A DNA stretch of 64,000 nt from Henckelia pumila (lineage: Eukaryota; Streptophyta; Magnoliopsida; Lamiales; Gesneriaceae). Position numbers and translations under genes: made by a program. Position 1 is the first letter of the stretch; every line of letters begins with the position of its first letter. The DNA lies in assembly GCF_033568475.1 (NCBI RefSeq), contig NW_027331840.1, positions 620,001-684,000 of the forward strand, read 5' to 3'. Below, piece by piece: positions 10,912 to 61,434 of the stretch. The notes under the pieces were generated by a model, which made no database searches, was not told the DNA's origin, and was given only the letters and a program-made list of their open reading frames with translations.

Positions 10912-13900
10912 TCAAAACAGCTCAGGATGGTATTCACGCATCCTGTCCTCAAGCTCCCAAGTAGCTTCTTCAGTACCTCGGCGCTGCCACTGAACTAGAA
11001 CCAAAGGAATGACTTTGTTTCGCAGAACCTTATCCTTATAATCCAGGATACGAGTAGGTTTCTCAACATAAGTCAAATCCTTATCCACCTGAACATCAGA
11101 CCGCTGTAGGATGTGGGACTCATCTGCCACATACCGTCGCAACAGAGATACGTGAAACACGTCGTGAATACTGGAAAGATATGGTGGCAAAGCCAGACGA
11201 TAAGCCAAATCTCCAATGCTTTCCAGAATCTCAAATGGACCGATAAACCTGGGAGATAACTTGCCCTTAAGGCCAAATCTGAGAATCCTGCGGAAAGGTG
11301 ACACTCTCAGAAACACTTTCTCCCCAACATCGAACTGCAAAGGCCTACGCTTGGTGTTAGCATAGCTGGCCTGACGATCCTGTGCAGTCTTAATCCGTTT
11401 CTTGATCTGATCGACAATGTCGATTGCCTGCTAGATTAATTCTGGTCCCTCAGCCTGTCTCTCCCCCACTTCTTCCCAGAAAAGTGGAGTACGACAATGT
11501 CGCCCGTACAACGCCTCAAAAGGTGCCATACCTATGCTAGTATGGTAACTGTTGTTGTACGCGAACTCAATCAACGGCAAATGATCATGCCAGGCTGAAC
11601 CAAAATCCATAACGCACGCTCGAAGCATATCCTCCAATGTACGGATAGTGCGCTCTGACTGACCATCAGTCTCCGGATGATAGGCAGTACTCAAACTGAG
11701 AGTAGTACCCATCGCACGCTGAACACTTCCCCAGAACCTAGAAGTAAACCTGGGGTCTCGATCGCTGACAATGCTCACAGGCACTCCATGAAGTCGAACG
11801 ATCTCCTGAACATACATACGAGCCATACGATCCACATTGTACTCTCGGCTATAGGCAATGAAATGCGCTGACTTGGTGAGTCGGTCCACCACAACCCAGA
11901 TAGCATCACAATTTCTCGGGGACATGGGCAAATGGGTCACAAAATCCATCGTGATAAACTCCCATTTCCATTCCGAAATAGGCAAACTGTGAAGCAAATC
12001 TCCAGGTCGTCGGTGTTCTGCCTTGACCTGTTGACACACCAAACATCTCGAGACAAACTGATAAACACTGCGTTTCATTCCCTTCCACCAAAACCGAGTA
12101 CGTAGATCCTTGTACATCTTGTTGCTTCCCGGATGAATACTCAACTTAGTGCGGTGCGCCTGAGACAAAATCTCCTCTCGCAAATCTTCATCCTGCGGAA
12201 TCACAAGCCTACCAGACAAACACAGAAAACCATCTGACTGATAGTGGAATCCAGACGAGTTACCCTCGTTGGCCAAACGCGCCAAACGTTGGGTCTTCGA
12301 ATCATTCATCTGAGCCTCTCGAATCCTTGAGTACAAAGCTGGCTCAGATAGAATCGCAAACATCTGAATATTCTTCATATATTTCTTATGCTTGAAGGTA
12401 AAACCTGAAGAACAACAGTCACTAATCGCACTAGACAAAGAACAAGTCTGAAGTGCGGATAGTCGCACCTTGCGACTCAAAGCGTCAGCAGTGAGATTAG
12501 CAGTTCCCGGATGGTACTTAATCTCGCAATAATAGTTCTTAAGCAAATCCATCCAACGTCTCTGCCTCATGTTCAACTCTGCCTGAGTGAATAAATACTT
12601 GAGACTCTTGTGGTCGGTGAAGATCTCAAATTTCTCGCCATACAGATAATGACGCCAGATCTTCAAAGCGAATACAATAGCTGCCAACTCCAAATCATAG
12701 ACTGGGTAATTGTCCTCGTGCAGCTTCAGCTGTCTAGAAGCGTATGCAATAACATGCTCATTCTGAGTCAGAACACAACCTAACCCCTGAAGAGAAGCAT
12801 CCGTGTAAACCGCATACCCTCCAGATCCTGACGGCAATGCCAACACCGGCGCAGAAGTCAACCGTCGTCGAAGCTCACAGAAATTCTCCTCACACTCAGA
12901 GGACCACTCGAAATCGACACCCTTACGGGTAAGTTGCGTCAAAGGTCGAGATAACTGAGAGAAGTTCAGAATAAAGCGACGATAGTACCCTGCTAGACCA
13001 AGAAAACTACGGATCTCAGCAACTGTCGTCGGATGCGACCAATTAAGAACAGCTTCAATCTTGCTCGGATCAACAGAAATTCCATCCCTGGATATAATAT
13101 GGCCAAGAAAGACCACACGATCCATCCAGAACTCACACTTGCTAAGCTTGGCGTACAACTGCTCATTCCGAAGAGTCTGCAGTACTATCCGCAAGTGAGT
13201 AACATGCTCCTCCGTGTTACGTGAATACACCAGAATGTCGTCAATGAAAACCACGACAAACTTATCCAGATACTCCCTGAAGACACGGTTCATCAGATCC
13301 ATAAATATAGCCGGTGCATTCGTCAATCCAAATGGCATCACTAGAAACTCGTAATGCCCATAGCGAGTACGGAATGCAGTCTTGGCTATGTCCTGATCTC
13401 GGACTCTCAACTGATGATAACCCGATCTCAAATCAATCTTGGAGTAAACTGAAGTACCCTGCAACTGGTCAAACAAGTCATCAATTCGAGGCAAAGGATA
13501 CTTGTTCTTCACAGTAACTCGATTCAACTGACGATAGTCAATGCACAGCCGCATCGACCCATCCTTCTTCTTCACGAAGAGAACAGGAGCTCCCCAAGGA
13601 GATACACTAGGACGAATGTACCCCTTGTCCAAAAGATCCTCTAGCTGATTCTTCAACTCGCGCATCTCTGACGGTGCCAGACGATATGGTGCTTGCGAAA
13701 TAGGCGAAGTACCCGGCATCAGATCTATGCCAAACTCGACTTCCCTAACAGGAGGAAAACCCGGAATCTCATCTGGAAAGACATCTGGAAATTTATCCAC
13801 AACAGGAATTTTTTCTAACCCAATGCTCTCAGCGGACAAATCAACTGTATAGATAAGGTAGCCTTCCCCGCCAGTCTCCAGAGCTCGACAGGCTCTCAAA

Positions 13901-15330
13901 GCAGATACTAAAGGCATCGGGGGTCGCGCTCCCTCACCATAAAAAAACCAGCTATCACTCCCCTCCGGATGAAAGCGAACTAATCTCTGATAGCAGTCCA
14001 CTGAAGCTCGATAGGTAGTCAACATATCTATCCCCAGAATGCAATCGAAATCATCCATCGAAAGGACCATGAGATTCGCAATCAGAATGTTACCCTCGAA
14101 CTCTAAAGGGCAACCCATCACTAGACGCTTAGCCAAAGCAGACTGACCCATCGGGGTAGAAACAGAAAGTACTACGTCTAGTGAAATGCATGGCAACTTA
14201 TGTCTCTTAACGAAACGTGCAGAAATGAAGGAATGAGATGCACCAGTGTCAATAAGCACAAGAGCAGGTATACCATAAAGCAGAAAAGTACCTGCGATGA
14301 CCTTCTCATTCTCCTCCACTGCATGATCATGTCTCAGAGCAAACACCTGGCCAGAAGCTCGTGGCCTCAAATGAGAACTCCCAGCAGGCTGTCCCTGCGT
14401 CCTCTGCTGAACGGAAGTCTGAGAAACTGATCCTGAACCAGAACCGCCTCCCCCAGATAATGGACAATCCCTCCGGATGTGACCAGTCTCTCCACAACAA
14501 AAACAAGCTCCAGAAGCTCTGCGGCACTTGTCGGTCGGATGGTTCTTCCCACAGTGATCACACTTGTCCTTCTTCCCGAAACGGACAACACCACCAGAAC
14601 CAGAAGAAGAAGTAGACCCGGACTTCTTGAATGACTGGGCACGGGGGGCCAAAGAACTAGCAGGCCTCGACTGAGAAAAGGGCCTGTTCCGTCGAATGTT
14701 GTCCTCCGCCTGGTGACAACGGCTCACCAAACCCTCGTAGGTCATGTCATCACCAACTGCCACACGGTCGTGGATCTCAGGGTTAAGGCCCTGAAGGAAT
14801 ATGTTGTACTTCATCGCAGCACTGTCAGCAATCTCTGGGCAATAGGCTAACAGATCGAAGAATCTCTGCTGATACTCCTCGATGTTCATATTTCCCTGGC
14901 GTAGACTCAGAAGCTCACCTGCCTTTGTCTGTCGGAGTGCAGGAGGAAAATACAGCTTATGGAAAGCTGTACGGAATTCGGCCCAGGTGGCCACTCCTCT
15001 AGCCGTAACAAAAGGTGCAGAAGTAAACCTCCACCACCTTCGGGCTCGCCCGTCCAGAAGGTATCCCAGTGTTTCCATCTTTTGCTCTTCGGTGCAACGA
15101 AACGAGAGAAAAGTCGTCTCCATACGGTCCAACCAGTTCTCCGCGTCCTCCGGAGACTCACCTCCAACCAAGGGTTTAGGCCCTTGCTGCAAGAATCGAC
15201 GCACACTGAAACGATTCTCATCGCGATGACAATGATGATGAGGTTGACGCTCCCGACGACGCTCACGATCATCATCTCCCCAGCGTCCACCTCCACTACC
15301 ATGAGAACTCTGATCATCGTGTTTTGCCAT
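10912..15330 (-). pseudogene. Gag-Pol polyprotein of the Del-type gypsy element, one in-frame stop
   Basis: The frame opens with an ATG at 15330 and runs 1299 codons to a TAG at 11433-11431. It continues in the same frame without another stop to 10912. Domains by residue: Gag ~40-215; CCHC zinc knuckle 276-289 (C276, C279, H284, C289); protease DTGA at 361; reverse transcriptase ~545-780 with FIDD at 695-698; RNase H ~838-950 (D844, E881, D906, D949); integrase HHCC (H1059, H1066, C1096, C1099) and DDE triad D1129, D1190, E1226. The part after the stop holds the integrase C-terminal domain and a chromodomain-like tail (EEATWELE). The TAG precedes CAG and probably arose from CAG (Gln). Every visible catalytic residue is present. 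Smaller ORFs on either strand across 11.0-15.4 kb are frame shadows. Confidence 0.95.
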
Positions 15331-16764: not shown

Positions 16765-17567
16765 AACATAAATATCTGAGTCAAACATTTAACTAAAAAT
16801 ACTGCATAATTAAAATGATTAAAGTTTGCATGCACTGACAATATTCAATAAAATATTCAAAACCACAACCACTGAAAAATAATTAAAAAGTGTAACATGT
16901 TGACATAATTAAAACATGCAATGTGACTCAGACATTTATCACGGTCACGGGGTCACTGCATGTCCGCTCATATGTCCTCGCCGCCGGTAGGAGCTACATC
17001 CTCCTCTACGTACTCACCTGCACCATACCAGTGTAGTGAGCCTAGAGGCCCAACATGCTAACATAACAAGGATTTAAAATAATTTAAATCACTTTAATAC
17101 TAATACATAACATATACATGAATGAGCATGCTTAAAATAATATCATGACATAACATAACTTAAATTTACTTAAATAACATAACACATACATATTGTTGAG
17201 CAGATTATTTTCTAACATCGCATGGTTGTATCCGTAGTGTAACCTTAAATCATACATTAAATACTGATCAGCGTGGAAACCAACGTACGTGGCCGGTGAC
17301 GAATCACCTCTTAAATTGGCAGTAAACTGCCCTTCAATCATATGGGGACGAATCCCCCTTAAATTGTCACACTACTTCAACTTCCAACATAAAATATTTT
17401 CTTGCTCAACCTTAAACATTAAATCATGCATAAAATATTATTTCATGAATGCATGTACTTAAATAAAATGTGTGTCCTTCATATATATTTAATTTAATTT
17501 CTTACTAACATATAATTATTAAAATAACTTCAATGCATAAAAATAATTAAATATATAATCAAGACAC
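16765..17567 (-). repeat. Right part of the older split LTR
   Basis: Continuation of the LTR-like sequence that begins at 9320. It is AT-rich with a GC-rich island at 16930-17055 (GTACTCACCTGCACCATACC), then more AT-rich sequence, and no coding potential. It ends where a 5'-truncated copia element begins. The exact junction at about 17567 is inferred from where copia Gag homology starts. Confidence 0.45.
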
Positions 17568-20500
17568 ATGCAAATTTCTCATGGATTGTACTGGACTGCT
17601 GGCCTAATCCTCAAGGAGACATTGAAGATATCACTCACGAACACAGCCCCAGGTGGAGTTGTGAGCATGGACTTCATCAAGAGTGGAATCTTGAATGAAG
17701 AAATGAGGCGGAGATCCCAGGGAGCTTCTACCTCACAGTCAGATGTTCTGGCTGCGGAGTCAAGGGGAAGAAGCAAGTTCAAAGGAAGCACACATCAGAC
17801 GCCAAGGAGGAGTAAATCCTCGGGGAGATACGCCCACATAAAGTGTCATCGCTATGGAGAAAAGGGACATATTAAGAAATATTGCCCACAATCGAAGGAC
17901 AAAAAGAAACATGAATCCAGTGATGAACAAACAAACGCCATTGATGAATTCAATGTCGTTCATGAGGCGGAACAGAAGTCGGTAAATCTGGCAACTCAAG
18001 AAACCACTTGGATAATCGACAGTGGAGCAACCGTCCACGTCACATCCCGAAGACAATGCTTTACATCCTACACACAAGGGGATTATGGTGTGGTCAGGAT
18101 GGGAAACAACGACATATCTAAAGTCATTGGAAAGGGAGATGTGAACTTGACTACCATGGATGGCTCTACACTGATTCTGAAAGACGTCAGACATGTTCCA
18201 TATATGCGCCTGAGTCTGATATCAGTCGAAAGACTCGATGAGGAAGGTTTCTGCACCACCTTCCGAAACGGGGTATGCAAGATTTCAAAAGGATCACTTG
18301 TTGTAGCAAAAGGATCAAAGATGTCGAAGCTCTACGTAGTACAAGAGAAACATTCTGAGAGCATGTACTACACAACAGAAGAAAACTCAACAGAATTGTG
18401 GCACCGACGTCTTGGCCACATAAGTGAAAATAATCTTACACGCCTTGTGAGCAAGCAAGTTCTACCCGGTATAAAGCAGGTTCATATGAAACAATGCACT
18501 AACTGCTTGGCCGGAAAACAGAACAGGATATCATTCAAGAGTTCACCACCTAGCAAAGCCGATAAAATCTTAGATCTGGTGCACTCAGATCTATGTGGCC
18601 CAATGCCATCATCTCTCGGAGGAGCAAGGTACTGGGTAACTTTTATCGACGATCATTCTCGGAAAATTTGGGTATGGACACTCAAAACAAAGGACCAAGT
18701 TGTAGAAACATTCAACAAGTTTCTAAACTTGGTTGAACGGCAAACCGGCACAAAACTCAAATGTATTCGAACAGATAATGGAGGAGAATACATTGGATCT
18801 TTTGATGAGATATTCAAGAAGAATGGAATCCGACACCAAATGACACGACCAAAAACTCCACAACTCAATGGATTAGCTGAAAGAATGAACAGAACCTTAG
18901 CGGAAAGAGTTAGAAGCATGCTCTCACATGCAAAGCTATCTAAGGAGTTTTGGGGTGAGGCCGTGGTTGCAGCCGCATACATATTGAATCGCTCACCCTG
19001 TGTTCCTCTCAATTATGATGTTCCGGAGCAGGTGTGGCAAGACAAGGATGTTTGCTATGATCATTTGCGGGTCTTTGGTTGTGTTGCTTATGTTCATGTA
19101 CCGAAGGATGAAAGACATAAGTTGGATGCCAAAACGAGAAAGTGCATATTTATAGGCTATGGTGAAGATCAACTCGGTTACAAATTTTACAACATAGACC
19201 TCAAAAAGCCTATAAGAAGTCGTGATGCCGTATTTCAGGAGAATGAATTCTTGGAGAAAATTGGAGATCAGAATTCCAAATCTGATACAGATCTTGAATG
19301 GTGGCCTTCAACTGTCAATCCACAACGAGTTGAAGATGAAGTGCAGAATGATCAGGAGGAAATTCAACCTGAGGATGAATAATCAAACAACGATGATGAT
19401 CGTGTTCACATTGAACCATCAGCGGAAAGTTCTCGTGGTGCCATGACCACACGTTCTGGAAGAACCGTGCGACCCTCAACCAGATATTCCCCAAATGAAT
19501 ATATTCTACTAACTGACGGGGGAGAACCAGAGAGCTTCCAAGAAGTTATTACCAGTGAACACAAGGATAAGTGGATGGAAGCCATGCAAGATGAAATGCA
19601 ATCTTTGCATGAAAATGATACGTTTGAGCTGGTGATTTTATCGAAAGGCAAGAAAGCTTTGAAAAATAAGTGGGTGTTCAAGTTGAAGCACGAAGAGCAC
19701 AGTAGTCAACCAAGATTCAAAGCGAGGATTGTCGTCAAAGGTTTCGGGCAGAAACATGGGGTCGACTTTGACGAAATATTTTCACCTGTGGTGAAAATGA
19801 CATCCATCCGGATTGTGCTAGGGTTAGCAGCTGAGCATAATTTGGAGGTGGAACAAATGGATGTCAAGACCGCATTCCTTCATGGGGATTTGGAGGAAGA
19901 GATCAACATGGAGCAACCAGAGGGTTTCGCAGAGAAGGGGAAAGAAGATCTTGTCTGCAGATTTAAAAAGAGTCTATACGGTCTTAAGCAAGCACCAAGA
20001 CAATGGTACAAAAAGTTTGAATCCTTAATCACTCAACAAGGATTCATGAAGACAACTGCAGACCATTGTGTGTTTGTCAAGAAAACCTCTGATGATGATT
20101 TGATGGTGCTTCTTCTCTATGTAGATGACATGTTAATTGTTGGCAAAGATTTTTCTGAAATCAAAGGCCTAAAGAAACAGCTAAGCAAGACCTTTTTGAT
20201 GAAGGACTTGGGGCCAGCAAAAAGGATTATTGGCATGGAAATCCATCAAGATAGGTATGCCAAGAAGACCTGGTTATCGCAGGAGAAGTATATTGAAAAG
20301 GTACTTCAAAGGTTCAACATGGACCAGGCTAAAGCGGTTGGATGTCCTCTTGCCAATCACTTCAAGTTGAACTCAATGCAGAGTCCTACAGAGGATGAGG
20401 AAGAAGAAATGAGAAAAGTTCCATATGCTTCAGCAGTTGGAAGTCTGATGTATGCCATGGTATGTACTCGGCCGGATTTAGCTCACTCTGTCGGTGTAGT

Positions 20501-27675: not shown

Positions 27676-28600
27676 TTTTTTTTATATATATAAACTCCTC
27701 ACTGGTGATCCCACGGTCCTAAACTTAGCAGATTTGCGGCACATCCTGGCTCTGGTGACTGAGGAAGATAATAATTCCATGTTGGGAGAGATAAATGAGA
27801 AAGAGATTTTTGACTGTGTACAGTCCTTGAATGCAGATAGTGCGACTGGCCCTGACGGTTATTCTGCATGTTTCTTCAAACATTGTTGGACTATTATCAA
27901 ATTCGATTTGTTAGCCACTGTTCGATAATTTATGATGGATGCTTCCTTACCGAGGTCGGTCACTGCCACGACTATCATCCTTATTCCCAAGGTCCTGAAT
28001 GCTCAGGCCTGGTCAGATTTCAGACCTATTATCCTATGTAATGTGTTGAAAAAAAAATCATCACAAAACTTTTGACTACTCGTTTGAGGAACATCTTGCC
28101 AAGGATTATTTCCCAGGACCAAAGTGGTTTTGTAGTTGGAATACTCATTTCAGTAAATATCCTCATGGCTCGGGAACTGGTTAATATATAAGATCAATTA
28201 TAAGGTGAGGGGAGGGAATACTATCCTAAAATTGGACATGGCTAAGGCTTATGACAGAGTTAGATGGAACTTTTTGACTAAGGTGTTACAGGCTTTCGGA
28301 TTTTCTCTTGTTGTAGGTGATATGTTTCTTTGTTGCATTTCTAATTGTTGGTTTATCGTCAGTATTAATGGCTCTCTCTCGGGGTTTTTTCGATCTCAAC
28401 GAGGTTGCATCAAGGAGATCTGTTATCTCATCTTCTATTCATCATTGCAGCGGATTATCTTTGTAAAGGGTTGGACAACCTTTTTAACAGATATCCTCTT
28501 ATGAAATTCCACTTGGGTAGAGCTGGTAATATCTCACATCTTGCTTATGCTGACGACATCATTATTTTCTCTAATAGAGCAACAAGGAATATCAAACGTC
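27676..28600 (+). pseudogene. LINE reverse transcriptase, multiply broken
   Basis: Recognisable in pieces: DSATGPDGYSACFFKHCW at 27830, LIPKV and WSDFRPI near 27990-28030, ILKLDMAKAYDRVRW at 28230, and the YADD catalytic motif (LAYADDIIIFSN) near 28545. These lie in more than one frame with stops between, so no product is possible. The thumb and zinc-finger region that normally follows YADD is missing. Confidence 0.85.
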
Positions 28601-28613
28601 TGAGGATGGAATT

Positions 28614-29054
28614 TTGGCTATCAGAGGCATTATCAAAGATCATCCGGGGTTTCCTATTCGGGCATTCCATGAGAGGATCGATCCGGGTTCCAATACCAGA
28701 GCGGAGATGCTAGCTATTCTTAGAGGTCTCCTCCTTTGTAGAGAGAATAATTTCTTTCCCCTTTGGCTAGAAGTTGATTCTTTGGTTTATCTTAATATTA
28801 TCAATGCAGACTCCTCCTGCTGGAACATCTCAAACACTTTGGATAAGATCCAAAACATCCTATCTAATTTCCATGTGATCAAGTCTCATGTTTACAGGGA
28901 AGCCAACGCTGCAGCGGAAAAGCTTGCTAATATGAGAATCCTTCTGGGTTCCGCTGTTCTATTTCCGGATCAAATTCATGGAAGATTAAGAAGCATTTGC
29001 AGACTAGATAGGACTGGTTTTCCTTACATTAGAACTACTTCGAAGCTTGCTTGA
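28614..29054 (+). pseudogene. LINE C-terminal RNase H-like domain
   Basis: An ORF of 146 codons with the plant-LINE RNase H pattern: a GIIKD start, AEMLAILRGLLLC, LWLEVDSLV, and an HVYREANAAAEKLAN end that matches the usual HV.REAN..AD.LA. A deletion joins it to the RT region just upstream. This family may be a host-type RNase H acquired by LINEs. Confidence 0.75.
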
Positions 29055-29130
29055 TTTGTACTCATTTCTTGAGAAGTCTTAGTCTAGTCTCCCTCTCTTG
29101 TACTCCCTTTTCATTATCTAATAAATGGGT

Positions 29131-30230
29131 AGCGGTCCGTCCATCCCTCCGCCATAACAGACGACTTTTCTTAAAAATTTTTACAGATATTGAGATTTAT
29201 TTTCTCAAATATAATTGATCAATTTGCTTCATGAAGCTAAAAATTTCAAGAGTAGAATAACTAAAGTATCGACCCTAAATAAAATGTTCATTGCTCGACC
29301 TTAATTTCCATCCTATATTTGACAATTATTATCAGATTATTTTGTTTTTAACATAATTTGTTTCTCAATTATTTTGGACAAGAATAAATCAAAAGTGTTT
29401 CATTTTTTTATATTTGCAACTAGTATTAACTCATTGTTTCCGTATTCTTGTATACTCACGAATAAGCTTAATTAAAGAAAATTGAAAGATTGTGATTTGC
29501 AGTTTGTTAATTAAAACAATAGTGTTGTCCGTCGTATTATAACACCAAAGATAACATGCAGCGAAAAATCAATAGCTTAAATAAATAATACACGAAATTA
29601 ATTTAACACGAGTAAAAACTCGTGCAGGTGCCTTAGGGCTAAAAAATCAATAAAAAATGTAGAATAGTGTTACAAAACAATACTATCGATTTTACAAAAA
29701 CGGTAAACTCTAAATTTCTTAACATGTTGAGATATCAAACTTTCATCCTTAACAATCAGAGTATAAAATAAACAAATGCAACTCCTATAAAACTAAGGAC
29801 GACACAACAAAAATTGTTCAACAATACTATGCACTAACTGTTTCATCTAATGTCTTCAACACCATCGATAAAATGAGGAAAGTAGTAACGATGAGTACAA
29901 AATCTAGCTTCAGCAACCTTCAAATTATCCTCTAGAATTCTTTAATGGTGCTCTGTGAATTATTCGTTTGAAGTCTTCTTTTTATAAATCTCTATAATGC
30001 ATATCAAATCATATCTTGAATATATTTTATAAATCATAGAATATTTACCATATTTCTTATTTTGTTTAGAAAGCCAAATTCAATTAATAACAATTTGGAT
30101 AATGCCATGTGTAATTAGATTATTACATAGAGGATTATACACACAATTAAATTAGAAAATTATCCCAATTTTTTTTAAAAATTATTTATCTTCAACGTAA
30201 AATTATTTTTCTTTCTTAAACAAAACTTTT
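29131..30230. other. AT-rich stretch without genes
   Basis: No ORF with recognisable domains and no clear element ends. Long A/T runs dominate. Confidence 0.55.
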
Positions 30231-30864
30231 AATGAAAATATTATGTTTTATTTTATTATTTATTGTGCAGTTCTAGATGTGTCAAAATTTAATACGACCC
30301 AAATTGACAAAAAAAATATTGGATTAGGTTGAGATTTTTGGGTTCAAGTCAGATCTAGTTGGACCCGAAAAATTAATTATGTAATAATTATTTTTTTAAA
30401 TAAAAATTTATTTTTATTTTTTTAATTTTTAATGTATAATTAAATACACATAAAAATATTCAATTTGATTTAAATACATGATAACAAATCTCGCTTAAAT
30501 ATAATTTAAATGTGAAGGAATAATTGTAAAAAATTTAAAATATAAAAACAACACAAACTAAAAATATATTTTTTAAAAAACAAATTTTTTTAAAAATTAA
30601 TTAATATATGATGAAACTTTATGAAAAAATACAAAAAAAAAAAGTTCTTTCAAACATACAATATATAAAAAATATTTCAATATTTCTTAATTCTATAAAT
30701 AATTTAAAAAAAATTGGGTCATCTAGGGTTGAACCAAATCTAACTCAACCCGATTAATTTTTTTGGGTTCAAACTGATATGATCCAAAGACAAAAAAATT
30801 CAACTCAATTTTGACATCATAAAACTACACAATAAATAATAACATAAAAAATAATATTTTCATT
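30231..30864. mobile_element. Fold-back element with ~57-bp imperfect terminal inverted repeats
   Basis: AATGAAAATATTA...TTATTTATTGTGCAGTT at the left is matched in reverse complement at the right end (AACTACACAATAAATAAT...TAATATTTTCATT). Inner parts carry GTGTCAAAATT / AATTTTGACATC and GGGTTCAAGT / GGGTTCAAAC blocks. About 634 bp and non-coding. I could not fix a target-site duplication; only CAAAA occurs near both ends. Confidence 0.6.
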
Positions 30865-30869
30865 CAAAA

Positions 30870-31045
30870 TAGGACTCTTTTGAGACGATTTCACGGATTT
30901 TTATCTATGATACAAGTCAACCCTACCAATATTTACAATAAAAGATAATATTTTTGACATAAAATAAAATATTTTTTCATAGGTGACCCAAATAGGATAC
31001 CGTCTCACAAAATTGACTCTTAAAGACCGTCTTATAGGAGTTTTT
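30870..31045 (+). mobile_element. MITE-like repeat of the 'GAGACggTCTCAC' type
   Basis: Begins with TTTGAGACGATTTCACGG and ends with ACCGTCTCACAAAA followed by GACCGTCTTATAGGAG. The interior has AAGTCAACCCTACCAATATT and a poly-TA core. The same family occurs in opposite orientation at 47743-47897. I recall similar repeats as abundant in asterid genomes. Confidence 0.6.
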
Positions 31046-31401
31046 ATCTTTCATTACAGTTTTTTTTTGCGATATAAAAGCAATTCTGGGTTGAATAGAA
31101 ATAATTTTTTAAAATTTTTTGAGATATTTTCTTAATTTAATATAGCGTGTAACCTTTTATGTAGAACGCATACATAACATTTTCCTAACAATTTAACAAA
31201 GAAGGAAATTCAAAAAACTAAATATTCCTTTCAAAACTGAATTAGAATTAGAAGTAACTAATTATCAAGACGGAAATTCAAGAAATTAAATATTCCTTTA
31301 ATTAGAAGTTAGTAGTAATTGTAATCCTCCTTTTGATTGTCATCATCAGATGTTTGTCCTCCTCTTCTTGCTCATTGTCTCCACCTTTTTAAGGGTCTTT
31401 T

Positions 31402-32352
31402 TCAATCTTCGTGGTCACCATCTGGAGATGGATTTGAATCCTTGCAAAGGACATGCTGAATTTTATGGCTGCAATCCCATGAATCACAAATTTTATGGCT
31501 GCAAACACATTTAAACATATGCCAAAGCAAAAGCAATTTCATAATAGCATACAAGAATAGCTATAAGAGCCTTAAAGCTGATTGAAGATGGCTATGGGCA
31601 ATTACCTTTCGATCATTTTTCTTAAACTTGAAGCTTCAATAACTGGTGGAAATTCGCTCTTGTCATGCGAGAATGGATTAAGATCTATATACCTTCTCAA
31701 ATTACCAATCAAAAACTTACGTTGTGACATTATGTTACTATATTCTGAAAATATCTCTTTCTGCTCCCTGCAAGTGTAGGGACAACAATTCAATTTTTCA
31801 GAAGTAGGAAAAAAAGGTGCTATAGAAAAAATTAAAACTGTCGAGAGGCAATAGATGAGTCACCTCCTCAAAATAATGATTAAATGAAAAATAATGATTA
31901 AATGATTTTCTTCTGATGCACACACCATTAATTCTTTCGCAAAAATCTCAATGGCGTAGATCGACCGAAATATTACTCTAATAACAAAGGATTTGATAAC
32001 TTGTAAATACGGCATACCTGACAAGGTTTTCGAAAAATTTCTGCTTCATAATCTCCGTGAAAATTGTCTTTGATTCATCATTATCATTTACCTTTAAAAA
32101 TCGACTTAGATATCGCTCAACTTCTTCCCATTCACCCGCTTGCACTTGATCTTCAAAGTACTTTATCTTCTGCCGCCAAAGTAAACGAAAATATCTGCTC
32201 ATTATCAGAGCACGCCAACTTTTGCACACGACATTGAATCTCATCAGAGATTTTGAAGGTAAACGTAGTAGAATTTCGGACAGGAGATCGACGTTATTAG
32301 ATAATAAAGAGATATCGGCACGTAGTTTTCCAGAATCTCCCTCGGCCGCCAT
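31402..32352 (-). CDS. F-box protein fused to a TOPLESS-type CTLH/CRA domain (four inferred exons)
   Basis: Inferred minus-strand exons are 32352-32018, 31977-31864, 31767-31606 and 31468-31402 (or from 31498). Together they give 226 codons (236 with the alternative acceptor) in one frame, including the stop. Residues ~17-60 form an F-box (LLSEILLRLPSKSLMRF..VCKSW). Residues ~62-111 match the CTLH region of TOPLESS co-repressors (KYFEDQVQAGEWEEVERYL, FTEIMKQKF). Exon 2 gives YAIEIFAKELMV (compare KAVDILVKDLKV in TOPLESS), exon 3 LRRYIDLNPFSHDKSEFP, and exon 4 QHVLCKDSNPSPD. The LisH motif is replaced by the F-box. Splice sites: CAG|GTATGC, AG|GTGACT and AAG|GTAATT as donors; TTAG, TTGCAG and ATTGCAG as acceptors. 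Introns are 40, 96 and 137 or 107 bp, and the first is unusually short. Role inferred: an SCF substrate adaptor or a TOPLESS-interacting protein. It could be a pseudogene if intron 1 is not spliced. Confidence 0.72.
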
Positions 32353-32369
32353 AGATGTTGTTTCAGGCT

Positions 32370-32415
32370 TCCTTCCTTCCTTCCTTCCATTATATATATA
32401 TATATATATATATTA
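32370..32415. repeat. GGAA/TTCC and (TA)n microsatellites upstream of the F-box/CTLH gene
   Basis: Four to five CCTT units (32370-32388) and about eleven TA units (32391-32413) lie 20-60 bp upstream of the ATG on the minus strand, in the likely leader or core promoter. TA runs could serve as TATA sequence; this is not shown. Confidence 0.7.
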
Positions 32416-32905
32416 TACGTACCAAACAGATTTTATTTGTCAAAACACAAGAGGAGATATATTGTTTGTTTTAAAATTGGAATTTTGAGATTATCTTTTC
32501 TCATATATAACATTATCTTTTGCTAAAATATTGATAAACCATTGCGTGTTTCCTGTATTTTTATTAACCTCACATATCTTATTCAATTTCGGACTATTGA
32601 TTACTATCCTACGACGATCTGTTCTCCTGTTCTACTATTTCCATAATATCCTCTGGCAACATATATTTTGTGTATGTTCAATATATCTATGATCTATTAT
32701 ATCTATCTATCTATCTATTCTATTTATTATTTTATTACTATTTATATATAAATTTCAATTGTGAATTTTTTCGAATGTCCTTGTTAATATATGTTTTAAT
32801 TAATTATTATTATATTATTATTTATTTATTTATTTTCATTTCATCATTAATTGTTTCATACTTTTTTTTCACCATACTTTATTTTTTTCTTTTATATATA
32901 CTAGT
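32416..32905. other. AT-rich spacer with a TATC microsatellite
   Basis: Non-coding. Short (TATC)n run near 32698-32718. The 87-codon ORF here is low-complexity hydrophobic sequence from AT-rich DNA and is not treated as a gene. Confidence 0.6.
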
Positions 32906-33350
32906 TGCGTCTCCACACGCATTGCGTGTGTGATCAAAATATAAATATTATTTATTGTGTGTGTATATATACATATTGTATTTTTGTTTCACATTATTTA
33001 AATTAAAAATAAAATCAAGGCACACAAATAAAGAAAATCATGGACAAATAAAGTTTAAAATATAGATTGAGATTGAGATAGGGATAAAAATTTTGTTCTT
33101 TTTAAAGGTATTTTAGATATTTCGTTGTGTTACGTGTGCGATTAAAATATAAATATTATTTATTGTATACATATTTATATTTATATTTATATATATCGTA
33201 TTTTTGTTTTACATCAATTTAAATTTAAAAATAAAGTGAAAGCACACAAATAAAGAAAATCAAGGACAAATAAAGTTTAAAATATAGATTGAGATTGAAA
33301 TACAGATAGAATTTTTGTTTTTTAAGGGTATTTTAGATATTTTCTTGAGA
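32906..33350. repeat. Two tandem ~208-bp units
   Basis: A block starting near GCGTGTGTGATCAAAATATAAATATT (32926) recurs about 208 bp later (GTGTGCGATTAAAATATAAATATT near 33134). Each runs through CACACAAATAAAGAAAATCA, GGACAAATAAAGTTTAAAAT and GGTATTTTAGATATTT. The copies have diverged moderately. They may be a decayed non-autonomous element; I see no transposase. Confidence 0.7.
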
Positions 33351-33402
33351 TTCACCAAATTAATTTTAATTCGATTAGTAATTATATATATATATATATA
33401 TG

Positions 33403-33598
33403 AGTTTTGATATGGTGATCACCTTTCATGTGCACTTATGTGTGCACCTGCTGATGTGACGTTCACCTATTATGACCACCCATGATGTGCACTTTTGTGT
33501 GCACGGCTAACGTGTCATCCTTTACATTCAACAGGGGAACGTCACATCAGCAGGTGCACACATAAGTGTGCATGATAGGTGATCACCATATCAAAACT
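33403..33598. mobile_element. MITE with ~65-bp terminal inverted repeats
   Basis: AGTTTTGATATGGTGATCACCT...GCACCTGCTGATGTGACGTTC at the left is repeated inverted at the right (GAACGTCACATCAGCAGGTGC...AGGTGATCACCATATCAAAACT) with a handful of mismatches. The element is ~196 bp and lies between (TA)n runs, so a TA target site is likely. The ~65-bp centre repeats the GTGCACTTTTGTGTGCAC theme. Confidence 0.85.
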
Positions 33599-34994
33599 AA
33601 TATATATATATATATATATATTAGATATATTACCATTTTATCATTAATTATTTTGTACGGTTTTTGAACAAGAAGCAATCAAGTTCTGAACAGCACAAAT
33701 TCAATATTTCAAGATCAAAATCAGAAGATAGGGCAAAATCAGAAGATAGGCCAGATATACAATTTTCTACAATCTCAACCCTAAACCCGATTGCATATAT
33801 TTTCTACCTTCTCTACGATAATATCAAGCAAAAACAAAACACTACCAGAAGGATTTATAACAAGAAGAAGAATAGTGCTAAACCTTTTAAACCACTGAAT
33901 CAAAGACTTTACTTATCTTCAAATTCAGAACACGAAATCTTGTATTATGTCTCAGCGCCGCCTTCTCTCTGAATTATACTCAAAGTTTTTCCCAGATTTG
34001 CAGAGTTTCTTGAACTGGTATTTTGGTGGCGGGTTAAACCGTCCGAGTTTTTCCCAGATTTGCAGAGTTTCTTGAATTTTTTTTTTTGGGGCGTCTTGCG
34101 AGGGGATGCGGGGGGTGCTGTGGTGTCGTTTTTATTTGCGGGGATGCTGTGGTGTGGTGTCAAAACGACACCACAGCAACATTTTTCTTTTCTTTTTTTT
34201 CATTTTTAATTTTTTTTATAAAATATTTTGATTTTTCCTTATTTGTCTTTTGTTTTGTTTTCTTTTTTACCTTTTTTTAATACAGTTTAATTTTTTATAT
34301 TGTCAATTTTTTTTGTTATAATTTATCTTTTTACATTATATAATATAAATAATATACCAATTGATTAAATATATCAATATAGAAACAAAAATAAATAATT
34401 ATATGTTTTATTCTAAAAATAAATAACTATATGTTTGGTAACAAAATAATTAGAAAAAAACTGAAATGCAAATGTTAAAAAAAATCGAACGTTTTATATT
34501 TAAATATTTTCATTCCATGTTGTAAATTTTTTAAAAAGGAATAGAACAAAAAAAGGAATAATCAAACAATCGAAAAATGTGTAAAAATGAAACACAAACC
34601 ATGTCTTCCTTCCAAAAGAAAGAGAAACAAAATGCCAAAAAAAAAGTCCAAAAAATTAAATAAAACAAATAAAACATATATAAAAAAATAGGCTAAAAAT
34701 TTTTTAAATGAAAATTTTTAGAGGGAACAAAAGAAAGATGAAAACTAAAAGCCCAAAAAACTAAAATTTAAATAATATATATTTTTTTAAAGAAGAAAAT
34801 TGTGTACTAGTACAAAACCTATCAATATACAAGTATAAATTATAACAAGAAAATTACACAATAAAATTTGGCATGATAAAAAGAAACTAATATATATAAC
34901 TAATATAAGAAAAAGAATTAAAATATATTTTTTAAAAAAGGAAAATGTTGCTGTGATGTACTGTGGCAAGGATACATTCTCTTATTGCTGATAG
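33599..34994. other. AT-rich spacer with a direct repeat and a small hairpin
   Basis: No gene recognised. A ~31-bp direct repeat (TTTTTCCCAGATTTGCAG...) occurs at 33984-34014 and 34046-34076. A 17-bp inverted repeat (TGCTGTGGTGTCGTTTT at 34116-34132; AAAACGACACCACAGCA at 34162-34178) follows. The 102-codon ORF at 33664-33972 has a tandem SEDRAKSEDR but no known domain. From 34200 to 34990 the DNA is low-complexity A/T. Confidence 0.55.
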
Positions 34995-35887
34995 TAGGCA
35001 TGCTTAATGATCCGGTTCGGCCCGGAACCGAACCGGACCAGACCCAATAAACCCGGAACCGGATCCGGTAAGAAAGAACCGGACCCGGAACCGGGACCAA
35101 TCCATTACTTAATGGATTGAACCGGTTCATACTAATATGAACCGGTTAGTCCGGTTCTGGTTCCGGTTCCTGAACCGGATCCGTGTAAAACCGGATCCGA
35201 CCCGGAACCGGATCCGGAACCAGTCAAAATTTAAAAAAAAAGAAAAAAGGGAATTTTCCAACCGGTACAAAAAAAAAAAGAAATTGCCAACGGCTACTGA
35301 TGGTGTAATTGCACTTTGGCCCCCGCCAATTAAAAAAATATATTATTTACACCCTAAAATTAACTATAAATAGTAGATGGTTTTTATCATTTTGACACAA
35401 CAATTTGATCTCAATTCTCTACTTTACTTTATCCATAATTATATCTCAAATATATACTTATTTATATTATAATTTCCTTATAATTATATCTCAAATTATA
35501 TATTTATTGAAAATGAATAAATTTGTGTTTTAAAATTCAAAATGCGTATATAACATTTGAAATTTTTTTTATTAAATAAAATTTTTAATTCAATGTTTTT
35601 TTCAAAAATTAAACAAATATTCTTAAATAAAAATTTAAACTTTGGGATATTTTTTTTATAAAAAAAATTCAAACCTGCCGGAACCGGCCGGAACCGGTCG
35701 GGAACCGCATCGGAACCGGCCCGAAACCCATAGAAAGGGGTTCCGGTTCGAATTGGTTCCAAGCTTTTTGCTTGGAACTGGAACCGGACCGGTTCATCAC
35801 CGGTTCCGACCGGTTCCTTGACCGGAAGGACCGGAATCGGTCGGAACCGGATCGAAACCGGACTGCCGGGACCCTTAAGCATGCCTA
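34995..35887. mobile_element. Non-autonomous hAT-like element (893 bp)
   Basis: Terminal inverted repeat TAGGCATGCTTAA / TTAAGCATGCCTA is flanked by a perfect 8-bp target-site duplication GCTGATAG (34987-34994 and 35888-35895). Sub-terminal regions consist of dozens of GGAACCGG/CCGGTTCC motifs at both ends, forming long imperfect inverted repeats. The centre (35230-35640) is AT-rich. ORFs here are translations of the repeats. Confidence 0.9.
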
Positions 35888-35895
35888 GCTGATAG

Positions 35896-36233
35896 TTTGA
35901 TTGGGACGGAAACCGTTGGAACAACTAATATTCAAGTCGGAAATAAATTAATAAATAAAGCTTTTTTATTATTTTTTCATGGTTTAATCATGAAGAAAGA
36001 TAATTTAATGAAGGTGCTAGCATTTTTTTCATCAAACAACGATGAATTAAAAATAAGTAAATTATCCATTAACTTTCGAGATAAAAGATTACTTACGAAA
36101 CCAAAATGATGCGTAAAATGTTCATTGGGGGATTGGACGTGTTTTGTTAGAAAATTACTAATTTGAGTCGATATTAAACCAAGGAAATCACTTATATAAG
36201 TCCCTGAGTTACCATCTTTTACAAATAATAATA
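35896..36233. other. Spacer, nothing recognised
   Basis: A plus-strand ORF of 70 codons (35897-36109) is visible without family features. Ends in an AAT-repeat run that supplies the target site of the copia element to the right. Confidence 0.5.
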
Positions 36234-37103: not shown

Positions 37104-38880
37104 TGGAAACCTCCTCTCTTGGATGGGACTAATTACCCATTTTGGAAAGAAATAATGAAAGCTTTCATTAAATCTGTTGATGAAAAAGCCTGGAGATCTA
37201 TTGTGACATGATGGACTCCTCCAATGGAAAAAGTAGGTGAAGAAAAAGAGACCATACTGAAGAAAGAAAACAAATGGACTGCAGATGAAGAACGAAAAGC
37301 CGAAACTCAAAATATTGAGGGAAGTGATGTATCTGAAAATGAAAATGATTTGGTTGAGTCACTTGCTTTACTTACCAAAAATTTTACTAAAGTGTTGAAA
37401 AGAATGAAAAATCAAGGAAAAACTTGGAATCCATCTAAAGCTAACAAATATTACAATTCTCGAAATTTCAGGAAAAACAAGGAGGATGCTGGTAGCACTG
37501 AAGAGAAGAACAAATTCAAAGGAATACAATGCAGGGCATGTGGAGGTTTTGGACACATTCAAGTAGAATGTGCAAATACCATCAAAGAGAAGAATAAAGC
37601 CATGAACTCTACTTGGAATGATGATGAGTCAGAAGAAAGCCAAGATGAGACTGACAGACACGTGAGCAACCATGTTGCACTAACTGCTCATACCAATCTA
37701 TCCAGTGCCGGACCTGAGTTTTTTTATGCCCGAGGCGATAAAAAAACATTGATGCCCTTAAAACTTAACATTCATGTATATTTTTTTATCGATGAATATG
37801 ATAGTATAAATAACATTACTTCTACAAATAAAATTAAAAATAGATAAAAATATGTCATAAACAAATACTAATAAAGCCAAGATCATCCAAACAAAATGTG
37901 AAATTCATGTTTTGAACTAGTATATATTCACTTGAAATTTGATCGTCTCTTAGTTTTGGGAGCGAAAATATTGATTAATTCTACATAATAAGTGTTATCA
38001 AACATTTTTTTTCTTGATTGATGCATAGTCAAATCATTTATCTTTCGTATAACATAGTTGATCGGAGATGATTTTCACACAACTTCAACTTGAAAAACCC
38101 TCTTTCGATAAATATAACTTTCGATGGATCACACAAATTATGCAATCAAGTGTTGAAAAACATCCTGAAACGAATCGATAAATAGAGATCAAGTGAAGTG
38201 AGATTTCAAGTCTTTATCACAAGCTACAATCCATTAATTATTTTTTAATAATGGGATGAGATCATGAATTAATTATATAATATACTAGTAATTTTTTTAA
38301 AATTTGGTGCCCCCAAAGTTTTGAGGCCTGAGGCACATGCCTCAAAATTAACACTAAAGGTCCGGGCCTGAATCTATCAGGGAAAGAGTTGCTGAAAACT
38401 CACTGTTCAGAACCCGTCTTACCTAATGTCGCAACAAGCAGTAAAACAAAGGTCGAAATATTTGATTCTGAATCTGAAACTGACTCAAAAAATGATGAAA
38501 GCAGTGGAAATGAAATAGAAGAAACTGAAGTGTTGAAGGCATATTCAAAAATGTATCGTATGTGGAAGATTGTATGTACAAAGAACACATAATTGGTAGA
38601 GAAAACGGAGTTGCTTGATCGTGAGAAAGAAGAATGGAAGAGAGTGGCTCAGGAACATGAACAGGATGTTGCAGGGAGTAAAATAAAATTAACAGATGCT
38701 CTACATGAACTTAATTTTTTGAAGAGCTCATTAAAATGTTTAATGTAGGAACCGCTAATCTTGATCATGTCTTATCTTTGCAGAGAAACGGTGGAGATAA
38801 AACTGGGCTAGGATATCAAGAAAACAGTTTATCTTCAGGAACTAAATTTGTGAAAAAGACAAGAATGAATCATCGTCATG
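37104..38880 (+). pseudogene. SIRE-like Gag remnant, split by an hAT-like element
   Basis: A frame starting near 37104 shows PPLLDGTNYPFWK, the usual SIRE Gag N-terminus. A TGA at 37209-37211 interrupts it in front of WTPP, and it continues in the same frame from 37224 to a CCHC zinc knuckle (CRACGGFGHIQVEC, near 37527-37570). The central Gag domain after KWTADEE is largely deleted. The hAT-like element at 37703-38370 splits the frame. The acidic region (SESETDSKNDES, 38460) and a heptad-rich segment follow to 38720 with further stops. No functional product is possible. Confidence 0.85.
37703..38370. mobile_element. hAT-like non-autonomous element inside gag
   Basis: Termini CAGTGCCGGACCT and AGGTCCGGGCCTG form an imperfect inverted repeat. 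A perfect 8-bp duplication, AATCTATC, flanks it (37695-37702 and 38371-38378). 668 bp, AT-rich, no transposase. The CAG-GCCCGGACC end is typical of a widespread plant hAT family. Confidence 0.9.
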
Positions 38881-41800
38881 GATATAAAAGATAAGCCCTT
38901 TATTCCCATATGTCACTACTGTGGAAAATCTGGTCACATAAGACCAAAATGCTATGATTACATCAGAGATTTTAGAACAAGAAAAACCTTGCCCTCTATA
39001 TATCAAACATATAGACAGCATTTCAGAACCAATATCCCTCAGAACTCGGGTAAGAATATTTGGGTTAGAAAATCCGATTTTAACTGTTATGTAGCATATA
39101 CTTCTATGCAAAATGATTCTAACAACTCCTGGTATTTTGATAGTGGCTCATCTAGGCACATGACAGGCGATATCTCACTTCTTACAAACTACAAGGAATG
39201 CAAAGAAGTGAAAGTAACTTTTGGTGATGGCATGAAAGGAAAAGTATTAGGAAAAGGAACACTTAATGTTCTAGGATGTCCTAAGTTCAAGAATGTGCTG
39301 CATGTTGAAGGGCTCAAAGCAAATCTCCTAAGCATCAGTCAACTTTGTGACCAAGACTTACATGTGAAATTCAATAAAATTGGTTGTGAAGTACTTGATT
39401 CAAATAATGTCTGTGTTTTGCAGGGATCTAGATCTGGGGACAACTGCTATATATTATCCGTCTTACTTTCTAAATCTGCCCCAGTTTTGTGTCATAAGAC
39501 TAGTAATGATGATATTGATATTTGGCATAAAAAATTGGGCCACTTGAATTATGACAATCTGATCAAAATTGTGAATGCAGGAGCAGTTCGAGGAATACCA
39601 AATCTAGGAAAGAAAATCCCTGGAATTTGTGGACCTTGTCAACTCGGGAAACAAACGAGAGCTCCACACAGTGCAATACACAAGTTCACAACAACCAGAT
39701 TACTTGAACTTGTTCACATGGATCTTATGGGACCTATGCAAGTAGAAAGTGTTGGTGGGAAAATATATGTTTTTGTGTGTGTTGATGATTATTCTAGATT
39801 TACTTGCGTGAACTTTATAAAAGAAAAATATGATACTTTTGATTATTTCAAACAGTTGTGTGTCAAGATCATGAATGAAAAACAGTGCATCATTGGTATG
39901 ATTAAAAGTGAGCATGGGAGGGAATTTGAAAATATTATGTTTGCTAACTTTTGCAATGAGCAGGGAATTAGTCATGAATTTTCAGCCCCAAAGACTCCAC
40001 ATCAAAATGGGATTGTTGAACGGAAGAATATGACACTTCAAGAAATGGCTCGAGTCATGCTAAATTCAAAGAAACTTCCAATGAAACTGTGGGCAGAAGC
40101 TGTCAACACATCATGCTATACAAATAGAGTCTACTTGAGTCCATGTATCACAAAAACTCCGTATGAAATTTGGAAAGGTAAGAAGCCAAACCTTAACTAC
40201 TTTCATGTGTTTGGCTGTGTATGCTACATTCTAAATGATCGAGAACATCGGGGTAAGTTCCAAGCTAAAAGTGACCAAGGTGTGTTTATCGGCTATTCCA
40301 CTAATAGTCGTGTCTATCGTATTTACAATCTGAGGTCTCAAACCATAATGGAATCAGCTAACATTGTGTTTGATGACGGGAATGACTTGAGTAAATACTC
40401 CACCGAAGATGAAGTAGGAGCTTTCATGGTAGAATCACTATAAATCAACAAAAAATCTTCTGATCAAGAAGATGTTTCAGAAGCTGTCGGGACATCACAT
40501 GAGACAGAAAGCTTGCAGAATACAAACGAACCTAATGAGCAATCTCAGGATCAACCATTCATTTCTGAAAAGGAGTCTTCATCTAGAATAAAAAAGAACC
40601 ATCCTTCCTCAGCAATAATCGGTGATCCCAACGAAGGTATACGAACTCGAGATGTGCCAAGAAGAAGGTATGATAACATGGTCAGGTATGTCTGCTTTAT
40701 ATCTCAATTTGAACCTAAAAATGTTAAGGAAGCTTTACTAGATGATGCTTGGATAAATGCAATGCATGAAGAATTAGAACAATTCGTTAGAAATGACGTT
40801 TGGATCTTGGTTCCCAGACCGGAAGATTTCAATGTTGTTGGAACCAAATGGATATATAAGAATAAATCTGATGAATTTGGCACATTTATTAGAAACAAGC
40901 CTAGACTCGTTGCTCAAGGTTACTCTCAAATTGAGGGAGTTGACTTTGAAGAAACTTTCGCTCCTGTTGCTAGACTTGAATCTATCAGATTACTTCTTGA
41001 TATTGCTTGCTCTTTGAATTTTAAACTATATCAAATGGACGTCAAAAGTGCATTTTTAAATGTTTTTTGAATTAAGAAGTCTATGTTGAGAATCCAAAAG
41101 GATTTGAGGACCCGTATCATCCTGATCATGTGTTCAAACTCAAGAGAGCTCTGTATGGGTTGAAGCAAGCTCCAAGAGCTTGGTACGAGAGATTGACTCA
41201 GTTTCTTACTAGCAGGGGCTACAAGAGAGGGGGAGTATACAAAACTCTGTTTATCAAACACATTAATTCTGATATTATTATTGCTCAAATATATGTCGAT
41301 GACATTGTTTTTGGATCTACTTTGCAAATTGAAGTAGATGAATTTATGAATCAAATGAAAGCTGAATTTGAAATGAGCATGGTCGGAGAATTAACCTACT
41401 TTTTAGGGTTACATGAAACAATGCGAGGATGGGATCTTCATTTCTGAGACAAAATATGCAAGGAATCTAGTGAAGAAATTTGGACTCGATAATGCAAAAC
41501 ACATGAAAACTTCAATGGGGTCAACTGAAAAATTGACCAAGGATGAGCTTGGAGTCTCAGTAGATACAAAATTATTTAGAAGCATGATTGGTAGCCTGTT
41601 ATATCTCACAGCAAGTCGACCTGACATATGTTTTTCTGTAGGAGTCTGCGCAAGATATCAAGCCAATCCAAAGGAAACTCATCTGAAGGCTGTCAAGAGG
41701 ATTATTCGCTATATTAATGGTACATCTAACTATGGAATTTGGTTCTCTAAGGATACTAACACTTGTCTGGCAGGATTTAGTGATGCAGATTGGGCTGGCA

Positions 41801-59270: not shown

Positions 59271-59410
59271 GTCCTCACCGTTAAAATTTCATTTTTACTT
59301 CTCTGATTTTTGCTTTCGCAAATTTTCTCTCAAATTCCTTTTTCCCGAGCTCCTTTGCTCTCCTTCTTTTCCTACAACTTTCGAGCCTCCTAAGTAAGTA
59401 AACCTTCCTT

Positions 59411-61434
59411 ATGGCCACTTCCTCCCGAGCTCACTCTGGGAGCTCGGATGAGGTATTCCGCGAGGTGGATCAATTTGATTCCCTCGCCCTTACCTCCACA
59501 GGAGAGCCCTCGGGCCAGGACCCTGCTCCCGCTTCACCCTCTCCTCAGGAAGATGACCTGGGCCACGACCCAGAAGTTCCCTCGGTATCGTGGTTTGAGC
59601 AATACTCATCCGAGCTAGATGCTTTGGATGAGGACAAAATAAGAGCTCTCTCTCACGCCCCAGAGGGTTACGAGTTCATCATTCCTGACCCTGAGGACCG
59701 AGCTGACCATCCTCCCAAGGGGTACTACACCTTCTATTTAGATCAGCTGGAGGCTGGTCTTAGGTTTCCTCTCCCCCTCCTCTTTCAACAGCTCAGCCGA
59801 TATTATGAACTCCACTTAGGACAGTTCACTCCAAATTCCTTCCGAACCCTGTGCAGCTTTGTAGTTCTTTTTAGAACCTTAGGTTTTGAAGTAAATTGTT
59901 TTACTATTTGTAACTTTTTGCTTCCCAAACGTTCTGAGGAAGGCCCATTCTACTTTTCCTGCCGACCTAACTGTAAATTCTTCAAGGGTTCTCCTAGTTC
60001 GAACAAGAACTGGAAGAACTCCTTCTTTTTCGTTCACCCCACTGATGCTTGGGACATATGCTCCACTTGGAGAGAAGTCCTCCCTCTTCTGCCTGTTCCT
60101 GCTCCGGGCTTTCGACAGGGGGAACTATTCACAGGAGCTCAGAGAGTTATAGGGGGTAGGTGCTTTAATGTAGCTGCCCTGATGGCAGAGGATCTGCTCT
60201 GCCACCACGGGCTCAGTTCAGCCGACGTTTCTGTTCGAGGAAACTTAGGTACAGCCCTACCCTTCTCTGGCCTCCCAACTCCCCCTTCTTCCCCCCACTT
60301 TTTTTTTTTCTGACCTCATCTTTGATTATTCAGGAAAAAGAGTTATGGATGCTGCCATGAAGAGGATGGTGGAGAAGCAAAAGGCCTCCGCTCACGCAGG
60401 GGCCAAGGCTGAGAAGAGCTCAGCTAAGCCTAAAGCTCCCTCTCCCCGTGCTGCTGCTACTCCCGAACCCTCCACTGATGCTTCTAAGGGTTCTAAGAGA
60501 CGTGCCCCATACAGCCCTTTCCCCGAGGTAGTGAAATTAGACTCAGGAAAGTCTTCTATTCCTGAGGTAACTCCCCTCCGTCAGTTCAGGGCAGATAGGC
60601 CCCCCACTCCTGTGGTCCGATGCCGAGCCAATTTCTTTGAGATGTATCACGATGCATTGCGCATTGTGGGGGTCGGGCCTACCCCAACTGCCGGGTCAGT
60701 TCTCCGGGACATGATCTCCCAGGCTGATGCTGACTACGTGAAGAACCTTGGATGGGCCGAGCTGATGCAACGTTCCAACACTGCTTCCGCTGAGGTGATT
60801 TTAATTTCACCATTATGTTATACTTTTCATGTATGTTTCCGGTTTGCTTACTCTTTTTTTTTAGGCTGCCGTCCTTAATGCTGAGATGTCCCTCCGATCT
60901 TCCATGGCTCGAAAGCAACTTTCGAAGGACACCCGGGGTTATGAAACCCAACTTGCTGAGATCAACCAATTAGCTGAGGAAGCTAAAGTTACTCATGCAA
61001 AAGAGGTGGCCAATCTCCAAGCCCAGATGGAGGAAATGAGGATGGGCTTCCAAGCTGAACGGCTGAAGCATCAGAGTGACTTCCGAGTCTCCGAGGTGCA
61101 GAAGGAGAATCTTAGGAGTGAACTCAAAGGGTCCCATGATCAACTTGCTCAGGCCCTTCAAGAACTAGAAGAGTCCCGAGCAGAGCTGTCCAAGGGAGCT
61201 GAAGGCTTCAAGGAGGCATTCTTGAAGTCCGATGACTACATGGATGAGGTGGCTGCCCAAGCCTATGGTTACCTAGCCAAAGGGTTCGATGGTTGCACTC
61301 AGCAGTTCAGGGCAGCCGGCTATCCTCCTGAAGGGACCCCGGTGGACTTCCTAGACTTAGACGGGTTTGCCCTCTCCCTTACCTCAGCAGAGGCTACCAA
61401 AGAGAATGAGGACGAGGGAGATAAGGAAAGTTAG
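59411..61434 (+). CDS. Putative gypsy-type transposon protein (Tat-like antisense ORF), three exons, intact
   Basis: Inferred exons 59411-60248, 60334-60794 and 60865-61434 give 622 residues in one frame. Introns of 85 and 70 bp have TTAG|GTACAG, GAG|GTGATT, TATTCAG| and TTTTTAG| borders, all canonical. Residues 84-175 carry the 'putative gypsy type transposon' domain (Transposase_28-like: YEFIIPDPEDRA, GYYTFYLDQLEAGLRFPL, FTPNSFRTL). Residues ~290-360 are Lys/Ala/Pro-rich. Residues ~435-545 form a long heptad-rich coiled coil (ETQLAEINQLAEEAKVTHAK, QALQELEESRAELSK). The end is acidic. A TATA box lies 141 bp upstream. Minisatellites sharing GAGCTGAGCTC flank it. Known family: such ORFs occur antisense to pol in some Tat-lineage gypsy elements; molecular role unknown. 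No stop or frameshift is seen, in contrast to every other retroelement ORF here. Confidence 0.75.

Follow-up and report, generated by a model that had tools for sequence, protein, structure and literature searches.

Henckelia pumila (Gesneriaceae) possesses a gene whose first coding exon encodes an F-box that runs directly into part of the CTLH region of a TOPLESS-type co-repressor. We assign a probability of about one half to the reading that this is a young chimera, made by DNA breakage and joining, which probably encodes a protein of 187 amino acids (aa) and in which any working part would be the F-box. The fusion gene has so far been seen in this species only. Positions given without a contig refer to the window, i.e. 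the whole stretch of 64,000 nucleotides analysed here (C86:620001–684000 of the 885 Mb H. pumila assembly), and the features discussed are collected in Table 1.

Table 1. Features of the F-box/TOPLESS fusion locus, in window positions; exon numbers follow the preliminary description of this DNA.
Feature	Position	Strand	Basis
Dispersed repeat upstream of the gene	34183–34889	−	At least 69 genome matches (40 of 107 candidates scored)
Exon 1 (111 codons plus 2 nt), from the start codon through F-box and junction to the CTLH segment	32018–32352	−	P0002; translation; open in eight genomic copies
F-box domain, residues 22–56	32185–32289	−	PF00646, 29.6 bits (curated cut-off 20.5)
Junction of F-box-derived and TOPLESS-derived DNA	32166–32170	−	Homology to L022 extends to 32170, that to the paralogue from 32166
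CTLH segment (residues 63–111), derived from a TPR2-like gene	32018–32166	−	PF21889 (residues 63–110), 58 bits (curated cut-off 27); 84.5% DNA identity over 155 bases with C86:834.8 kb
Intron 1 of the public model, containing the exon 2 relic	31768–32017	−	Splice sites CAG/GTATGC and CTTGCAG/GG; P0002
Relic of TOPLESS exon 2 (AIEIFAKEL exon), skipped by the public model	31864–31977	−	Sequence, copies and P0002; aligned to P0003
Exon 3, the second coding exon of P0002; covers the latter half of the CRA region	31606–31767	−	P0002
Last coding exon (exon 4) and stop codon	31402–31468	−	P0002
Dispersed repeat downstream of the gene	30077–30868		At least 67 matches for query 30000–31400 (40 of 2550 candidates scored)

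One exon, two domains

Exon 1 is a single open exon in which the F-box is followed, in one frame and with no linker, by the TOPLESS CTLH segment, just as the preliminary description had claimed from the letters alone. Both Pfam matches lie far beyond chance (E = 6e-7 for the F-box, 1.4e-15 for the CTLH segment), the second being partial and covering profile positions 2–49 of 125. NCBIfam gave no match above cut-off for exon 1, and Rfam none in window 28000–36000. The solved structures nearest to the 225-aa, four-exon translation of the preliminary description are the N-termini of TPR1 and TOPLESS.

The public NCBI model of the gene, here P0002, is a 187-aa protein containing PF00646 and PF21889. 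It is named ‘TOPLESS-RELATED PROTEIN 2-like isoform X2’, after its TOPLESS relative and with no mention of the F-box, and the label implies at least two predicted transcripts; to judge from this isoform-labelled model, the locus is probably transcribed. Its three coding exons correspond to exons 1, 3 and 4 of Table 1 and end in a TGA stop codon (31404–31402). An alternative in-frame acceptor lies 30 nt upstream of the last coding exon, which would then start at 31498, and these two frame-keeping acceptors may be the source of another isoform.

The preliminary description had three further exons following exon 1, all in one frame. This did not hold for the AIEIFAKEL exon, which P0002 skips, splicing exon 1 to exon 3 in frame; judged by the public model, no transcript joins the four exons. 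The skipped exon would come after an intron of just 40 nt (32017–31978), while plant introns are normally longer, and an insertion makes the stretch 21 nt longer than in the other genomic copies described below. We have therefore rejected the four-exon translation, given the public model and the implausible 40-nt intron. Reading the array copies by eye, we found neither an in-frame acceptor nor a clear donor for this stretch. Exon 2 is also missing from P0004, a paralogue in which the gap between the CTLH exon and exon 3 is only ~80 bases, and is retained in another paralogue, P0003. Exon 2 therefore seems to be dead in the branch that comprises the fusion copies and P0004, unlike in P0003.

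The F-box half and its relatives

The closest relative of the F-box DNA (window 32170–32280) is at C1:68338252 (L022), with 91% DNA identity over 112 bases. Further relatives occur on C4 (L061, L062, L063 and one more), and the homology with L062 extends into the 5' UTR and the start-codon region (75% over query 27–226), so that the start codon and 5' UTR of the fusion probably arrived with the F-box and derive from the same family. The open frames of these relatives are short (88 aa in L022, 63 aa in L061, 74 aa in L062), and L063 has no frame over 60 aa that passes our motif filter; with short frames only, the direct donor of the F-box was not found among them. The same genome also has an F-box gene that is intact, L028 (PF00646), though its relationship is more distant. 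Downstream of its F-box P0002 has a decayed TOPLESS segment only, and SKP1 binding, if it occurs, would be through a standard F-box.

The TOPLESS half: source and losses

The TOPLESS half resembles a gene at C86:834.8 kb, 180 kb from the fusion, both in the CTLH segment (Table 1) and in exon 3 (79% DNA identity over 177 bases). This is P0004, a WD40-less TPR2-like paralogue with a LisH, a CTLH region and an acidic tail; no WD40 was found in the 30 kb examined there. The same gene (L044, C86:833589–835477) has a second LisH-like stretch ahead of its LisH-CTLH, and its aspartate-rich tail takes the place of the WD40 half. In a tree of CTLH segments the fusion copies group with the P0004 gene and P0003 (support 0.93), beside the full TPR2-like gene L018/L050 (weak support); the tree has ~50 columns, its rows L027 and P0049 were misread and P0012 and P0057 are absent owing to the motif filter, so that it is a hint only. 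The introns downstream of exon 1 are positioned as in L050, in agreement with the earlier suggestion that the fusion arose by genomic rearrangement and not by retrocopying.

That the LisH helix and the WD40 half are missing was confirmed: Pfam gave no LisH match, TOPLESS residues 1–37 are unmatched in the window, three TOPLESS-type queries at E up to 1 returned neither LisH nor WD40 in the window, and P0002 has no WD40 propellers. In TPL numbering P0002 lacks residues 1–37 (LisH) and approximately 88–125, the latter because exon 2 is skipped. The CRA dimer contacts K102, T116, Q117 and E122 are thus missing from the 187-aa model; mutating all four together abolishes the contact that TPL subunits make through the CRA, according to the accessible part of the source (PMC8203292). 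The LisH, the other dimer contact of TPL, is absent as well. Changes are also seen where EAR motifs are bound: R67, Y68 and K71, which we take to line the EAR groove too, read D, E and T in P0002, and the groove residue F74, which is F in 24 of 29 aligned rows, is T. Mutation of F74 led to loss of TPL interaction in a co-purification assay, as stated in the available portion of PMC6797205. The residues at positions 145, 146, 148 and 149, described in the same accessible part of PMC8203292 as contacting MED21, read G and N at two positions and a conservative R at the other two. Both P0003 and P0004 have D at 67 and T at 71, and P0003 retains F74; part of the loss therefore preceded the fusion. 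TPL N-terminal constructs repress without forming tetramers (PMC8203292, same portion), and missing tetramers alone are thus compatible with a repressor role.

Junction, copies and age

The junction lies inside the exon, and three bases between the ends of the two homologies match neither side. All 111 residues of exon 1 are matched, in an open frame, at eight genomic places (8 of 149 matches listed): the window, six places at C86:503.8–576.3 kb (the array) and one on contig C131. The six array copies differ from one another at 0–2 of ~1780 aligned sites and are spaced by ~6.3 kb among four of the six, and likewise between the other two, while comparison of the window copy with each of the six gives 83–85 differences in ~1699 sites (5%). 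The window copy and one array copy have ~4 kb of downstream flank in common, with less common to the others, and the copies are therefore best described as segmental and tandem duplications. By these sequence comparisons the fusion is older than the divergence of the window copy from the array (5%) and, provided that L022 is representative, younger than the split from its F-box relatives (9%). Neutral rates in plants would then put it at a few million years.

Signs of selection

The comparison of exon 1 between the window copy and an array copy gave 15 substitutions and no indels in 335 bases, as against 21 indel events in 1073 aligned bases of introns, UTR, exon 2 relic and 3' flank. The indel deficit of exon 1 relative to this non-coding and relic sequence has P = 0.0014 (Poisson) or 0.007 (Fisher). 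Its dN/dS in the same comparison is 0.38 (9 to 6 changes, P = 0.07), and substitutions accumulate in it at the same rate as in the 3' flank (P = 0.55). Exon 3 looks neutral, with five non-synonymous and no synonymous changes between the same two copies and a dN/dS of 0.82 against the paralogue (P = 0.36). The CTLH segment yields dN/dS values against the paralogue of 0.34 for the window copy (P = 0.056) and 0.29 for the array copy (P = 0.0097), values that include time before the fusion, and the F-box 1.19 against L022 (10 changes) and 0.39 against L062. In the array copies a 12-base deletion creates a stop in exon 3, and the C131 copy carries a further deletion. Overall the evidence for selection is mixed, and constraint, if there is any, would be on exon 1. 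We do not accept these tests as proof of function, since the changes are few and only two independent lineages are compared, the window copy being one and the array and C131 copies together the other.

Repeats and neighbouring sequences

The gene lies between two dispersed repeats (Table 1). The upstream repeat is also found upstream of the array copies and of the C86 paralogue, where it stands just before the gene (C86:832709–833409) in the same orientation to it; at other loci it has inverted partner arms, and at each C86 and C131 copy it has a single arm. About 1.5 kb upstream of the window copy (32713–34180) is missing from the array copies, where the flanks are ~44 bases apart, and this segment contains an inverted repeat (33383–33471 and 33530–33618, 93% complementary). 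Elsewhere in the window are an open Ty3-like polyprotein of 1299 aa (11434–15330, minus strand), two copia-like integrase frames (17559–19379 and 38869–40440, plus strand) and a gypsy-type Transposase_28 frame (59402–60310, plus strand).

Other TOPLESS-type CTLH sequences were encountered in the genome. Eight 82-aa frames with near-identical scores, on four chromosomes (C1:107893634, C1:20940643, C2:172471013, C3:131853071, C3:103706991, C3:74319600, C4:74761151, C4:199459795), match positions 52–95 of the TOPLESS CTLH/CRA profile and may represent a repeat with a TOPLESS piece inside it. Three divergent CTLH copies (148035872, 148200647, 148208547) lie within 175 kb at C4:148033832–148208702, a second local cluster of this family.

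Comparison with known proteins

The preliminary description knew of no F-box/CTLH protein of this type, and the domain search that it proposed bears this out: P0002 was the sole carrier of an F-box together with PF21889 among the protein matches listed (one of six, one of three, and among the best 120 of 717), candidates being of 0.55 to 1.75 times the query length. The genome searches were of H. pumila's own genome. A description of an F-box/TOPLESS-CTLH fusion was not found among the listed titles and abstract beginnings of open-licence papers.

P0002 has the CTLH segment, part of the CRA region and the intron positions in common with TOPLESS/TPR co-repressors of the TPR2-like branch, and differs from them in lacking LisH, residues 88–125 and WD40 and in having T for F74. 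The closest relatives of its TOPLESS half are the WD40-less LisH-CTLH paralogues P0003 and P0004, which retain the LisH and have no F-box, P0003 with and P0004 without exon 2. Its F-box is of the same general type as that of propeller F-box proteins such as L028 (54% identity over residues 15–55), but where those have a C-terminal substrate-binding propeller P0002 has a TOPLESS fragment. In function the nearest parallels are TBL1/TBLR1 and HOS15; these co-repressor proteins contain an F-box-like motif and are tied to ubiquitination in the accessible parts of PMC5129953 and PMC9853073. These are of a different build: the family combines LisH, an F-box-like motif within a conserved protein and WD40, whereas P0002 has neither LisH nor WD40, and its origin was presumably independent.

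Origin and possible function

We suggest that an F-box gene contributed its 5' end, comprising 5' UTR, start codon and F-box, and that this piece became linked in frame, within an exon, to a WD40-less and already decaying TPR2-like gene, whose LisH exons and initial CTLH-exon residues it replaced. The chimera would probably be spliced as three coding exons into the 187-aa protein, and its exon 1 is now present in eight copies. The protein could bind SKP1, and hence cullin 1, through the F-box, with a TOPLESS-derived helical tail that would no longer tetramerise and probably not bind EAR motifs; its role might then be to compete as an F-box-only protein or to serve as adaptor for other substrates. 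A more specific version, in which the gene is a newborn SCF adaptor whose CTLH tail recognises a non-EAR target and which was amplified because of this function, we regard as doubtful.

A real fusion, perhaps transcribed, whose copies drift with no selected function is a serious possibility, if short of an even chance. It would account for the neutral exon 3, the dead exon 2, the stop in exon 3 of the array copies and the extra deletion on C131, as it would for an exon 1 substitution rate no different from the flank and for F-box relatives (L022, L061, L062) with short frames only. Less expected under such drift are an exon 1 without indels whose frame stays open in each of the eight copies, dN/dS values weakly below 1, and a public model with isoforms. 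The function first proposed for this gene, a bridge from SCF ligases to TOPLESS or a dominant interfering TOPLESS subunit, draws on the presence of both domains within one protein. We consider it very unlikely: with the LisH, the CRA contacts of residues 88–125 and F74 lost we see no evident way for the protein to join TOPLESS tetramers and interfere there, of the four residues that contact MED21 two have changed (one reads G, the other N), and a link to the tetramers is made unlikely by these same absences and that of WD40.

Capture and shuffling of a gene fragment by a transposon (Pack-MULE or Helitron) could be imagined in this retrotransposon-rich region, with dispersed repeats on both sides of the gene, some having inverted arms elsewhere in the genome. 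The ~4 kb of common downstream flank, the 6.3-kb tandem layout, the single-armed upstream repeat and the absence of scatter among the seven copies on C86 and the one on C131 all speak for segmental and tandem duplication instead, and on this layout we judge such capture highly improbable; no terminal repeats or target-site duplications bracketing the fusion were found. Scarcely any weight falls on an error of assembly or annotation. C86 (883 kb) and C131 (467 kb) are indeed small contigs beside four of 183–234 Mb, but the junction is intra-exonic and common to eight copies on two contigs, and the window copy is ~5% diverged from the array copies.

Significance

On present evidence, then, the fusion provides no link between cullin ligases and TOPLESS tetramers. 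As a chimeric plant gene it is a clear case and a recent one, for which the relatives of both halves, the junction, an unfused paralogue and the subsequent amplification are visible in one genome, and the locus can be used to study the ways in which new F-box genes originate and the speed of their decay. If translated and able to bind SKP1, its product would, to our knowledge, be the first F-box/TOPLESS-CTLH protein; and should the newborn SCF adaptor prove true, it would be a recent, natural E3 adaptor made from a co-repressor, with the relatives of both halves still present in the same genome.
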